This document shows positions 17,586 to 39,753 of a stretch of 64,000 nucleotides of DNA, in pieces. The stretch spans positions 1-64,000 of the forward strand of contig NZ_JADEYS010000024.1 in NCBI RefSeq assembly GCF_015209595.1. The letters are read 5' to 3'. Each line of letters begins with the position of its first letter. Position 1 is the first letter of the stretch. The position numbers and the translations under genes were made by a program. This DNA comes from Pontibacterium sinense (GTDB lineage Bacteria; Pseudomonadota; Gammaproteobacteria; Pseudomonadales; Balneatricaceae). A model generated the notes under the pieces. The model was given only the letters and a program-made list of their open reading frames with translations. It was not told the DNA's origin and ran no database searches.

Positions 17586-17671
17586 GCCCAAGTGGTGGAA
17601 TTGGTAGACACGCTATCTTGAGGGGGTAGTGACCTACGGTCGTGCCGGTTCGAGTCCGGCCTTGGGCACCA
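17586..17671 (+). tRNA. tRNA-Leu (anticodon GAG)
   Basis: This 86-nucleotide class II tRNA includes an encoded CCA end. The acceptor stem is GCCCAAG/CTTGGGC; the D arm and a long variable arm typical of tRNA-Leu are present. The anticodon loop is TTGAGGG, giving GAG, which reads CUC and CUU. The T arm is GCCGGTTCGAGTCCGGC. It lies immediately after secG. Confidence 0.97.
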
Positions 17672-17719: not shown

Positions 17720-17796
<77 letters not shown>

Positions 17797-23951: not shown

Positions 23952-24043
23952 CACTTTAATAAAACATTGCTGGTTGGCATATGCGGACTGGCAGTTGTGG
24001 CGTTGTACTGGAAATATGCTCGGTACATCGTGTCTATTAATCG

Positions 24044-24060
24044 AACGACTCTGAGTCGTT
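24044..24060 (+). promoter_or_regulatory. Hairpin in the rpsO leader
   Basis: AACGACT and AGTCGTT form a perfect seven-pair stem around CTG, ending 24 bases before the rpsO ATG. In E. coli, S15 represses its own mRNA through leader structure near the start codon. A similar role is inferred here. The lack of a T tract argues against a plain terminator. Confidence 0.45.
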
Positions 24061-24084
24061 TGCATATTGATTGGAGAAATCATC

Positions 24085-24354
24085 ATGGCACTAAGTGCAG
24101 AAAATAAAGCAGCAATCGTTGCAGATTTTGCTCGCGGCGAAGGCGACACCGGTTCCCCAGAAGTTCAGGTAGCTCTGCTGTCTGCTAACATCGAAGGCCT
24201 GCAGGGTCACTTCAAAGCAAACAAACACGACCACCACTCTCGTCGTGGTCTGATCCGCATGGTAAACCAGCGTCGTAAATTGCTGGATTACCTGAAAGGT
24301 AAAGATGCTGATCGTTACCTTGAGCTGATCAAGCGTCTGGGTCTGCGTCGCTAA
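24085..24354 (+). CDS. rpsO: 30S ribosomal protein S15
   Basis: S15 is a primary 16S rRNA binder in the central domain and bridges to the 50S subunit. The 89 residues from MALSAENK to RLGLRR are full length and show the conserved [12 protein letters not shown] and HDHHSRRGL. An ATG 18 bases upstream is ignored because GGAG sits at the right distance for 24085. It is paired with pnp, as in most Proteobacteria. Confidence 0.97.
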
Positions 24355-37285: not shown

Positions 37286-37771
37286 CTACAACCGTTCAAG
37301 GCTGCCCATAGGGTATGCGACTAAAAGCTGGCTCAAACTGCGTCTATCTGGCAGAACCAGTTCAGGCGCGATTTCGGCCAGGGGCCAAAGTACAAACGTG
37401 CGTTCGCACATAAAGGCATGAGGTACGGTAAGGCGTTCGGTATCAATGACCTGCTCACCGTACAGTAAAAGATCCAGATCAAGGGTGCGTGGACCCCAGT
37501 GACGCTCGCGGATGCGGCGATGCTGTTGCTCAAGACGTTGCAGCTCATCGAGCAGTGCGTGGGGTTCCAGTGTGGTATCCAGTGCGGCGACTGCGTTGAT
37601 AAAGTCTGGCTGGTCTTGAGGGCCCACCGGGTCAGAACGGTAGATGCTGGAGCGTGTGATCAGTTCACAGTGCTCCAGCGCGGCGAGCTCTTCAAAAGCG
37701 TCCGTGACTTGTTGGAAAGGGTTTTCAAGGTTGCTTCCCAATCCGATATAGCAGCGTATCGTCTTACTCAT
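37286..37771 (-). CDS. folK: Hydroxymethyldihydropterin pyrophosphokinase
   Basis: FolK pyrophosphorylates 6-hydroxymethyl-dihydropterin for FolP. The 161 residues have YIGLGSNLENP at the start and RWGPRTLDLDLLLYG-type signature (here HWGPRTLDLDLLLYG) and VPHAFMCERTFVLWPLAEIAP. The ATG at 37771 overlaps the pcnB end by eight bases. The alternative longer start at 37825 lies inside pcnB and is rejected. Confidence 0.95.
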   Translation of the reverse strand: MSKTIRCYIGLGSNLENPFQQVTDAFEELAALEHCELITRSSIYRSDPVGPQDQPDFINAVAALDTTLEPHALLDELQRLEQQHRRIRERHWGPRTLDLDLLLYGEQVIDTERLTVPHAFMCERTFVLWPLAEIAPELVLPDRRSLSQLLVAYPMGSLERL

Positions 37772-39164
37772 CACGAGTGGCGTTGTTTGGTTTCTTTCGG
37801 CGGCGACGGCGTGGTTTCTGGCCATTACCGGATTCGCGGCTCATTATTCCACGCTTATCTTCGTTGGCAGACTGGTATTCAGTCCACCACCGGCTCAATC
37901 CACCCAAGTCTTCACCGCTGTTTTCACGCAGCAGCAACAGATCGTATGCGGCACGGAAGCGAGGCTGTTCCATCAGGCGCTGCGCGCGCTTTCCATCGCG
38001 GCGTGGTAGGCGAATCTGCATCTCCCAGATCTCACGGATCGGGGTTGAGAAGCGGCGTGGAATGGCCGTGGATTTTACCTGCAGTGAAAGCACCTGGTTA
38101 GCGGCTTCATGTAAGGCCGGCAGTGGAGGCATGCGCTGCTCTTTGATCAGCTGCTGCATGCGCTGTTGTACCGGATACCAAAGCAGTGCGGCGAACAGGA
38201 AGGCCGGAGTGACGCTTTTACGCTGCGACAAGCGGCGGTCCGTATTGCGCAGGGCGTTCATGATCAATGTTTCAACCAATTCGCCTTGCTCGCCATCCAG
38301 CGCTTTTTGAGTCTGTGGGAACAAAGGTTCGAACAGGCTGTAGTGTTGCAGATGCTCGTAAGCCGCTTCTGCATAGCCGGATTGCAACAGCTTCAGAGAT
38401 TCATCAAACAGGCGTGCTGCCGCGATGTCTTTCAATAGGGGAGCCAGTTCGCGGATAGGCGCGGCAGTTGCCGGCTCAATCTGAAAGCCCAGTTTACCGG
38501 CAAAACGTGCTGCACGTAGCATGCGTACAGGGTCTTCACGGTAGCGCGCATCCGGTTCTCCGATCATCCGGATAATACCGTCCTGGATGTCCTGATAACC
38601 GTTGGCGAAGTCATGGATGCTGTGATCTTTGACACAGTAATACAACGCATTGACTGTGAAATCGCGACGCGCGGCATCTTCTTCGATCGTGCCGTAGACG
38701 TTGTCACGGGTGATCATGCCGGATTCGTTCTGGCGGCCGTGTTCGCCGTCGCTGTTTTTTGGGTGGGAATCGTGGCTGGCGCGGAATGTAGCGACCTCAA
38801 TCAGATCGCGGCCAAAACGTACGTGAAGTAGTTTAAAGCGGCGGCCAATCAGGCGTGAGCGACGAAACAGTTCGTGCGCTTCTTCCGGACTTGCGCTGGT
38901 AGCCACATCAAAGTCTTTGGGTTTTTCGCCCTGCAGCAGGTCGCGAATGCACCCGCCCACCAGATAGCCATCGTAACCACCGTCAATAATACGGTAGACG
39001 ACTTTCATCGCGTTATCGTCGAGGTATTTTCGCTGAATCTGATGTTCTGATTCGGGAATGATGCGCAGACCAGTTTCGGCTTGAGCGGAAACGGATTGTC
39101 CCGCGTGTACCGCACTACCTTTGCTGAATATCGAGCTTATGCGTTTAAGCAGACTTCTAGCCAT
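37764..39164 (-). CDS. pcnB: Poly(A) polymerase I
   Basis: PcnB adds 3' poly(A) tails that mark RNA for decay by PNPase and others. The 466-residue protein belongs to class II nucleotidyltransferases: YLVGGCIRDLLQGEKPKDFDVATSA carries the catalytic GG and DxD in part, followed by RRDFTVNALYY and an RNA-binding helical domain. The tail is very basic and low complexity (RRRRRKK). The ATG at 39164 (MARSLLKRIS) is preferred to an upstream in-frame start. In Pseudomonas the gene also follows crcZ. Confidence 0.94.
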   Translation of the reverse strand: MARSLLKRISSIFSKGSAVHAGQSVSAQAETGLRIIPESEHQIQRKYLDDNAMKVVYRIIDGGYDGYLVGGCIRDLLQGEKPKDFDVATSASPEEAHELFRRSRLIGRRFKLLHVRFGRDLIEVATFRASHDSHPKNSDGEHGRQNESGMITRDNVYGTIEEDAARRDFTVNALYYCVKDHSIHDFANGYQDIQDGIIRMIGEPDARYREDPVRMLRAARFAGKLGFQIEPATAAPIRELAPLLKDIAAARLFDESLKLLQSGYAEAAYEHLQHYSLFEPLFPQTQKALDGEQGELVETLIMNALRNTDRRLSQRKSVTPAFLFAALLWYPVQQRMQQLIKEQRMPPLPALHEAANQVLSLQVKSTAIPRRFSTPIREIWEMQIRLPRRDGKRAQRLMEQPRFRAAYDLLLLRENSGEDLGGLSRWWTEYQSANEDKRGIMSRESGNGQKPRRRRRKKPNNATRDE

Positions 39165-39199
39165 AGAACACCAAAATTCACCCATAAAACCAAAGTGGC

Positions 39200-39515
39200 G
39201 CATCATACCATTTACGCGACCGCAGTATAAGCTATTCCCTGCCTGCAAGTGTGGTGAACAGATAGTGGTACTGATAATAGTACTAGGAGTAAGAAGGAGG
39301 AGTGGGAGCTGATCGCATCTCAGACAACTACGCTAATCTTAGCTTGTTGTTTTTGTTTCTAAGAGCACTTTCTCGGGACCGTTGATGCTGGTCTACGATC
39401 AGCTACAAGCCTCATTATTATTTTTATTCGAGGCGGGGTACCTATCCACTTGCTACCTGTTTTTATTTTTATTGCTGGTGCAGGTTTCTAAGTAAGCATT
39501 GTTGTTGTTTTTACA
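39200..39515 (-). ncRNA. crcZ: CrcZ-like small RNA (Hfq/Crc-sequestering), ends approximate
   Basis: Location, promoter and motifs all match Pseudomonas CrcZ, the RNA that titrates Hfq/Crc and lifts carbon catabolite repression. The start is inferred 12 bases past the -12 element of the sigma-54 promoter. Four A-rich CA motifs lie on the minus strand: AAAAACAACAACAA (39512-39499), AATAAAAATAAAAACA (39473-39458), AATAAAAATAATAAT (39428-39414) and AAACAAAAACAACAA (39358-39344). The last three sit in loops closed by CCTG/CAGG, GCCTC/GAGGC and CTTAG/CTAAG. A fifth AACAACAA at 39560-39553 lies upstream of the promoter. No clear terminator precedes pcnB, so the 3' end is uncertain and readthrough is possible. 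Confidence 0.8.
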
Positions 39516-39525
39516 TCTAAGTAAT

Positions 39526-39541
39526 AGCAGGCACTGTGCCA
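39526..39541 (-). promoter_or_regulatory. Sigma-54 promoter of the CrcZ-like RNA
   Basis: On the minus strand TGGCACAGTGCCTGCT matches TGGCAC-N5-TTGCW with one mismatch and has the required ten bases between GG and GC. Transcription should start near 39515. CbrB, encoded next door, is a sigma-54 activator. Confidence 0.8.
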
Positions 39542-39615
39542 GTTTTTTTAACTTGTTGTTTTTTATATGTATTTTATTTTTGTGGTTAAGGGTTAACCAT
39601 TCGAAGTGTGGGGTT

Positions 39616-39720
39616 TGTTACCGTGCTCCCCGTATGGGGTAACACTTGGTGGGTAGAGAGGTAACACTTTGTGTGGGGGAAAGTGTTACCTCAACTGTTA
39701 CCGAACGTGTGCAGTGTTAC
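39616..39720. promoter_or_regulatory. Cluster of TGTTAC/GTAACA sites, probable CbrB binding region
   Basis: Six half-sites occur in 105 bases: TGTTAC at 39616, 39684, 39696 and 39715, and GTAACA at 39639 and 39661. Two of them form a perfect inverted repeat GGTAACACTTT (39660-39670) and AAAGTGTTACC (39680-39690). They lie about 75-180 bases upstream of the sigma-54 promoter, the usual enhancer distance. TGTTAC-type palindromes are reported for CbrB in Pseudomonas. Confidence 0.75.
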
Positions 39721-39753
39721 CTTGTTCGCGTTCTCGGCACAGGGTGGGGCTGT

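Follow-up and report, generated by a model that had tools for sequence, protein, structure and literature searches.

A candidate CrcZ-type decoy RNA between cbrB and pcnB in Pontibacterium sinense, with counterparts across many families of the order

The gap between cbrB and pcnB in the DNA analysed here, a 64,000-nucleotide stretch of the Pontibacterium sinense genome (the window), very probably encodes a CrcZ-type decoy RNA under the control of CbrB and sigma-54, which would titrate Hfq/Crc and thereby lift carbon catabolite repression. This switch has been published only for Pseudomonas and its closest kin, but a much wider group of bacteria appears to possess it. In the portion of its text available, a 2022 review describes the cbrA-cbrB-crcZ order only in Pseudomonas and Azotobacter and as unique to the Pseudomonadaceae (PMC8871633), and an excerpt of another paper calls the system exclusive of the Pseudomonads (PMC6296734). 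Our data contradict the uniqueness of the CbrAB system to the Pseudomonadaceae, as the system reaches many families of the order. A literature search from which subscription journals were mostly absent, and which does not establish priority, returned nothing on CrcZ in Oceanospirillales or in Marinobacter/Marinobacterium. In the literature listed, CbrB does occur together with Marinobacter, CbrA/CbrB with Halomonas, CbrAB with Alteromonadales and Crc/Hfq with Oceanospirillales, and a mesopelagic metatranscriptome study with five mentions of each of the two genes cbrA and cbrB may concern other taxa too (PMC5073097).

Transcription, Hfq/Crc binding and the physiological role are modelled on Pseudomonas. 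On poor carbon sources phosphorylated CbrB would bind the half-site cluster, and sigma-54-dependent transcription would start at about 39514. The resulting RNA, of some 210 nt or more, would expose four CA motifs, the last two in the loops of conserved hairpins. These motifs would bind Hfq at its distal face, jointly with Crc. Hfq/Crc would in this way be drawn off the CA motifs at the ribosome-binding sites of uptake and catabolic mRNAs, and carbon catabolite repression would be relieved. For P. aeruginosa, the accessible part of PMC4063720 describes CrcZ as binding the Hfq distal face via A-rich stretches and so titrating Hfq.

The anatomy of the locus can be read directly. The minus strand carries, in this order, cbrA, cbrB, a 589-nt gap and pcnB (Table 1); the ORF at 37764..39164 is the one which we take to be pcnB, encoding poly(A) polymerase I. 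CbrA proteins are expected to consist of an SLC5 transporter domain fused to a histidine kinase. The N-terminal 480 residues of the window protein appear hydrophobic by eye, and Pfam at E<=0.001 recognises the kinase and PAS domains and gives no SSF-type match. Residues 1-461 of the window CbrB are 64-68% identical to CbrB of Pseudomonas/Stutzerimonas, and among the matches listed from named contigs the closest come from an Oceanospirillaceae MAG (98%), from an uncultured Marinobacterium (85%) and from M. arenosum (77%); the NCBI taxonomy assigns Marinobacterium to the Oceanospirillaceae. Elsewhere the window holds a ribosomal protein S15 leader (24037-24141; Rfam RF00114, 69.6 bits) and two tRNA genes (17586-17668 and 17720-17793).

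Table 1. Features of the cbrA-pcnB region in the coordinates of the window
Feature	Coordinates	Strand	Basis
cbrA, sensor kinase, 983 aa	41160..44111	-	ORF; Pfam PAS, HisKA, HATPase_c; long hydrophobic N-terminal part
cbrB, NtrC-type response regulator, 464 aa	39754..41148	-	Pfam Response_reg and Sigma54_activat
CbrB half-site cluster, six perfect TGTTAC/GTAACA	39616..39720	-	match to published half-sites
Putative sigma-54 promoter TGGCACAGTGCCTGCT	39526..39541	-	sequence match; consensus score 17.5 of 19 (authors' own score)
Candidate CrcZ-type RNA	39308..39514	-	start predicted from promoter; conserved sequence and structure up to 39308
CA motif 1 AAAAACAACAACAA, at predicted 5' end	39499..39512	-	invariant A columns in alignment A2
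CA motif 2 AATAAAAATAAAAA	39460..39473	-	alignment A2
Hairpin 3, GCCTCG-loop-TGAGGC, CA motif 3 (39428-39415) in loop	39409..39434	-	covariation
Closing helix GCTGATCGTA (39403-39394) / TGCGATCAGC (39317-39308), encloses hairpin 4	39308..39403	-	covariation; MFE and centroid
Hairpin 4, TCTTAG-loop-CTAAGA, CA motif 4 (39357-39344) in loop	39337..39364	-	covariation
pcnB, downstream gene, start codon uncertain	37764..39164	-	ORF

The half-sites in the gap comprise GTAACA at 39720, 39701 and 39689, TGTTAC at 39666 and 39644, and GTAACA at 39621. The last three are spaced by 22-23 bp, and the distances from their starts to the sigma-54 element downstream are 125, 103 and 80 nt. Published CbrB half-sites read TGTTAC (F) or GTAACA (R), their centres lying 20-25 bp from one another, and the promoter-proximal sites run F F R in the window as against F R R in P. 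putida (both from an excerpt of PMC6296734). In the Pseudomonas loci perfect half-sites lie at about -124 and -104, nearly the same distances as in the window. Six of the 33 half-sites in the 64-kb window fall in the gap, where 22.8 would be expected window-wide, and in 200 mononucleotide shuffles no 110-nt cluster had more than three. TGGCACAGTGCCTGCT is the sole GG-N10-GC on the transcript strand of the gap, and four AANAANAA clusters follow in the predicted transcript. A preliminary description of this DNA had claimed the layout cbrA-cbrB-crcZ-pcnB, CbrB-like sites with a sigma-54 promoter of exact GG-N10-GC spacing at 39541-39526, and a transcript with four CA motifs; the first is borne out by the ORFs, the Pfam domains of CbrA and CbrB and the pcnB-like frame downstream, and the others agree with the sequence as described here. 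Further AANAANAA words at 39581-39553, just upstream of the promoter, would lie outside a transcript from the predicted start.

In its place between cbrB and pcnB, its half-sites and its sigma-54 promoter the candidate resembles Pseudomonas CrcZ (RF01675), and like CrcZ it begins its CA-motif array about 13 nt after the promoter element, the motifs following at 13, 52, 97 and 168 nt as compared with typically 13, 41, 71, 156, 297 and 320 nt in CrcZ. If it ends near 39308, the RNA is about half as long as the 407 nt given for PAO1 CrcZ in the available text of PMC4063720. It further differs from CrcZ in that CA motifs 3 and 4 lie in covarying hairpin loops, in its long-range closing helix and in the terminator, which was not found. 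The candidate RNA folds at -49 kcal/mol (z -3.4), and a C/T-rich tract lies beyond 39308 at its 3' side. A search for an intrinsic terminator between the RNA and pcnB gave none, so that the RNA may extend into pcnB. Sponge RNAs of the RsmY/RsmZ type carry repeated GGA motifs in hairpin loops that titrate the translational repressor RsmA. The window RNA is like them in placing repeated motifs in hairpin loops, and differs in its Hfq/Crc target and its AANAANAA motif.

Conservation of sequence and structure was assessed in a structure-blind alignment (A2) of 28 RNAs from 23 loci of the family. The starting set was 37 promoter sites with at least three CA motifs in 28 loci; five rows were dropped (two L041 duplicates, one upstream L028 site, one cut by a locus end and one locus with masked bases), as were four more for A2 (L007 as near-identical; L028, L031 and L033 as divergent). 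The 28 RNAs hold on average 4.29 non-overlapping CA motifs versus 0.87 in dinucleotide shuffles, the observed value being reached in 14 of 2800 shuffles, a count that leans upward because rows were chosen for at least three motifs. All but one of the 28 invariant columns are A, in or adjoining CA motifs. A structure of three helices and 22 pairs has 90.4% of its cells paired and a covariation score of 0.385, with two-sided changes in 19 of the 22 pairs (64 cells); controls with one side slid give 5-9 such pairs, 23-42% pairing and scores of 0.03-0.11, a comparison in which the structure is favoured because it was derived from the same 28 sequences. Shuffles reached the observed value in 0 of 500 cases for four of five measures and in 22 of 500 for the fifth. 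Two-sided changes occur in nine of the ten pairs of the long-range closing helix (96.1% of cells paired) and in five of six pairs each in hairpin 3 (98.2%) and hairpin 4 (70.5%). RNAalifold recovers two of the three helices (16 pairs), and hairpin 4, which was added by eye, is absent both from its prediction and from the minimum free energy fold of the window sequence alone, and so rests on covariation.

A covariance model of the family RNA (R1) matches the window at 39483-39308 with 164.6 bits, the window sequence being in its training set, and at E<=0.001 it finds the RNA in 99 of 116 genomes of the family, some of them training genomes, which represent 13 of the 16 genera. The body of the RNA is thus more than the preliminary description allowed in calling it mostly motif: within the family there is covarying structure, which a covariance model finds. 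The accompanying expectation that sequence search may miss the RNA holds for the Rfam CrcZ model, which scores 13.1 bits in the gap and does not reach its gathering cut-off of 95. A genome-wide search with that model gave no match, and the controls of that search matched nowhere either. As a positive control on loci, it found all six named Pseudomonas/Stutzerimonas loci and L027, and none of five others; L027 is taken as Pseudomonadaceae because of this match, and with it included all seven tested Pseudomonadaceae loci are found. Conversely, the best R1 score on 17 Pseudomonas/Stutzerimonas loci is 15.4 bits (E 0.2). As the two models barely cross-score, membership in the CrcZ type rests on position, promoter, motif and partners, and is assigned without detectable sequence homology of the RNA. 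By eye, the bodies of the RNAs from other families appear unrelated to that of the window, and the Rfam search misses the RNA because this body changes between families. Gap matches to the Rfam models rseX, mir-290, let-7, RF_site6 and ZFAT-AS1 were far below cut-off and were rejected as chance. Separately, Rfam places an sRNA P36 immediately behind the cbrB stop codon and ahead of CrcZ in L066 (6443-6503) and L046 (6446-6506) and at the stop codon in L087 (6411-6473); in these Pseudomonas/Stutzerimonas loci it may be the cbrB 3' end or a terminator and not an independent sRNA.

Taken at its simplest, the gap could be A-rich intergenic DNA with promoter-like words, given that AANAANAA is a loose motif in DNA of this composition. 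The covariation, the recurrence in family genomes and the clustering of half-sites all speak against such a coincidence, as does a stricter pattern (sigma-54 site, CA motif, AATAAAAATAA) that matches once in the 4.64-Mb genome and not at all as a reversed control, and we regard its likelihood as practically negligible.

The distribution of a CrcZ-type RNA was scored in the stretch after cbrB by a sigma-54 site of at least 16 of 19 plus at least two AANAANAA. Both features are present in 79 of the 80 named loci among the matches listed, including seven of the eight outside Pseudomonas/Stutzerimonas, the sole exception (L039) having a gap of 184 nt. The same holds for 27 of 30 loci taken from whole genomes (L006-L035), where L032 has CA motifs behind a weak promoter site and L012 and L017 have neither feature, and for 14 of 19 loci from further genomes (L116-L134), where L117 is truncated at a contig end, the RNA of L129 (G044) sits some 4 kb away from cbrB and L120, L130 and L134 are without RNA. 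Five pairs are probably the same records in two sets (L007/L036, L009/L037, L012/L039, L014/L040 and L024/L041). In other families of the order such an RNA lies directly after cbrB in 14 of 20 CbrB-bearing genomes (G036-G056 without G053, G055 among them with Rfam CrcZ). The preliminary description had placed the system in one more distant genus; it is present there, and its range proves far wider, taking in many families of the order.

Within the family the RNA also occurs in multiple and in dispersed copies. Tandem copies, two or three, occur in several genomes, and G021 has three copies by cbrB and two elsewhere. In genus g8 (G011 and G025) the cbrB-pcnB gap is without RNA, and each genome has three strong full-length R1 copies elsewhere, besides weak or cut matches; both genomes are out of sample for R1. 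The 220 nt upstream of five of these six copies contain a good sigma-54 site together with 2-5 perfect CbrB half-sites; at the sixth (L201) there are two half-sites, and the GG-N10-GC site is poorer. CrcX is a further Pseudomonas RNA of the CrcY kind. As additional CA-motif RNAs of CbrB/sigma-54 type away from cbrB, the copies in G011, G025 and G021 resemble CrcX and CrcY (for CrcY, an excerpt of PMC6296734), and they differ from these in that the unlinked copies are recognisable by R1 as the family's own RNA and in that G011 and G025 have no cbrB-linked copy.

These arrangements bear on whether the stretch is instead the 5' leader of pcnB, with CbrB driving pcnB and the CA motifs controlling its translation via Hfq/Crc. 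Such a leader would fit the lack of an intrinsic terminator before pcnB and the pcnB-like frame found downstream in 122 of 129 cbrB loci. It sits poorly with the empty g8 gap and the copies elsewhere, with the tandem copies, and with TGGTATGAT at 39210-39202, close before pcnB and with similar letters in many relatives, which is possibly an extended -10 promoter for pcnB; we consider it very improbable and retain the decoy RNA as the preferred reading.

In genus g4 the RNA is found where CbrB is not. No CbrB orthologue was detected in G007, G022 or G034 (best matches 41-43% over part of the length), and every one of the six g4 genomes searched keeps an R1 RNA. The G034 copy is flanked by a gluQ-like ORF and pcnB, the position at which the window has cbrA and cbrB. 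In the three genomes read, the g4 RNA is preceded by a sigma-70-like TTGAAN-N17-TATANT (L205 4345-4373, L206 4155-4183, L207 4199-4227) and by no sigma-54 site of the kind sought, and RpoN is present in G007, G022 and G034. We read this as loss of cbrAB with a change of promoter. An inverted repeat AAGTG...CACTT lies just upstream in L206 and L207 (less clearly in L205) and is perhaps the site of a regulator that replaces CbrB control. Genus g2 gives R1 matches in 3 of 15 genomes, all weak.

A class-wide draw (E<=1e-130) found CbrB at 57-64% identity in 12 of 142 other genomes. All 12, which belong to other orders, have a CbrA-like kinase adjoining, in loci that reach only the kinase half of CbrA, the transporter part lying outside the stretch. 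A sigma-54 site followed by CA motifs occurs in none of the 12 within at most 1.5 kb after cbrB. One of the other-order loci (L224, near 1371, minus strand) has three perfect CbrB half-sites ahead of a sigma-54-like site downstream of cbrB, and no CA motifs; it may represent a different kind of CbrB target.

The protein partners that the preliminary description had proposed looking for, Hfq, Crc and RpoN, are all three encoded in the same genome, outside the window. Crc, located between pyrE- and rph-like ORFs, has as its best PDB match 4jg3 'Catabolite repression control protein' (1.6e-80), which we take to be P. aeruginosa Crc, and Hfq has 1u1s. This Crc, like 4jg3, is without QE and GDxN, the catalytic motifs of the nucleases, and reads CLQD, FCGTYSVAH and SEHAP at the motif sites; QETK, GDLN and SDHAP are intact in another ORF of the same genome. 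QE and GDxN are lost in all 31 family Crc proteins inspected (G009, G016, G017 and G032 were left out), with SDH kept in four (L154, L160, L163 and L316), and G012 gave no Crc match. In genus g2 the three genomes tested have a Crc match, degenerate in the two inspected. Outside the family, in 12 of 15 RNA-bearing genomes (the 14 above plus G044) there is a Crc homologue without QE, and in 11 of the 12 the D of GDxN is gone as well, G039 being the one that keeps it; G038, G043 and G047 have one degenerate homologue and a second keeping the catalytic letters. Where the RNA is found, Crc is thus usually without nuclease motifs. That the two always go together is too strong a statement: G051 and G056 have the RNA and only intact nuclease-type Crc homologues, G037 has the RNA and gave no Crc (genome 75% complete), and G042 and G049 have a degenerate Crc and no clear RNA after cbrB, with G036 cut by a contig end. 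In the other-order CbrAB genomes, Crc-like proteins of more than 40% identity occur in 6 of 12 with all motifs intact, as they also are in that of G063 at 39%. On thin sampling, and judging the presence of the RNA in those genomes by the stretch after cbrB, these data suggest that CbrAB predates the RNA and that a non-nuclease Crc arose together with it.

The same comparison bears on whether the RNA titrates Hfq alone and serves, independently of Crc, as a broad Hfq sponge and not a catabolite switch. The available part of PMC4063720 presents P. aeruginosa Hfq as the RNA binder and Crc as devoid of RNA-binding activity, and the two genomes outside the family with only nuclease-type Crc homologues point the same way. 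Against this stand the loss of both motifs in every family Crc inspected and the prevalence of QE-less homologues among the RNA-bearing genomes of other families, and we judge a Crc-independent sponge unlikely.

Candidate targets of the proposed Hfq/Crc decoy were sought in 625 predicted leaders, with start codons set by a simple rule of our own. AANAANAA at -35..-3 occurs in 26 of them; 14 other spacings average 18.5 and reach at most 24. The interval -70..-36 is similar (20 against 13.9, maximum 20). In G012, the genome that gave no Crc match, the count is 11 of 286 (8.8, maximum 14). When the genes were sorted, unblinded, 11 of 26 CA leaders belonged to uptake or catabolic genes against 3 of 26 controls (DctP, DctM and LigB; Fisher p 0.027), and if NhaB, MnhB, PBP_like and GDSL lipase are added the control count becomes 7 of 26 and most of the weight of the difference is gone. 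The CA set was annotated in two lots, 10 picked by eye and then 13 more, with three genes left unscanned and counted as not catabolic (L242:7831-8544, L249:8547-9272 and L262:246-1085), and the control set was 26 leaders drawn at random from 70 with other spacings. The CA set also includes housekeeping genes, such as rplP and fabA. For a role with Hfq/Crc the leader enrichment is therefore weak support, and the gene functions are suggestive. In L242 (11571-15146) three neighbouring genes, for a periplasmic binding protein, a DcaP-like porin and an AMP-binding enzyme, all show AANAANAA close to their predicted starts, which matches the expectation for a Crc-controlled catabolic cluster.

On balance we lean, by a little, towards a history in which an old gammaproteobacterial CbrAB gained, in the order of Pseudomonas, a fast-evolving CA-motif decoy RNA while a nuclease relative became the non-catalytic Crc; the RNA would later have been duplicated and dispersed, and in one CbrB-less genus would have come under a sigma-70-type promoter, RNA and Crc persisting in the absence of the sensor system by which the circuit is defined. 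This raises the evolutionary question of whether the loss of the nuclease motifs of Crc and the appearance of the decoy RNA were one event. The tandem, dispersed, CbrB-free and structurally rebuilt decoys form a natural comparative series that may reveal which parts of a sponge RNA are under selection.
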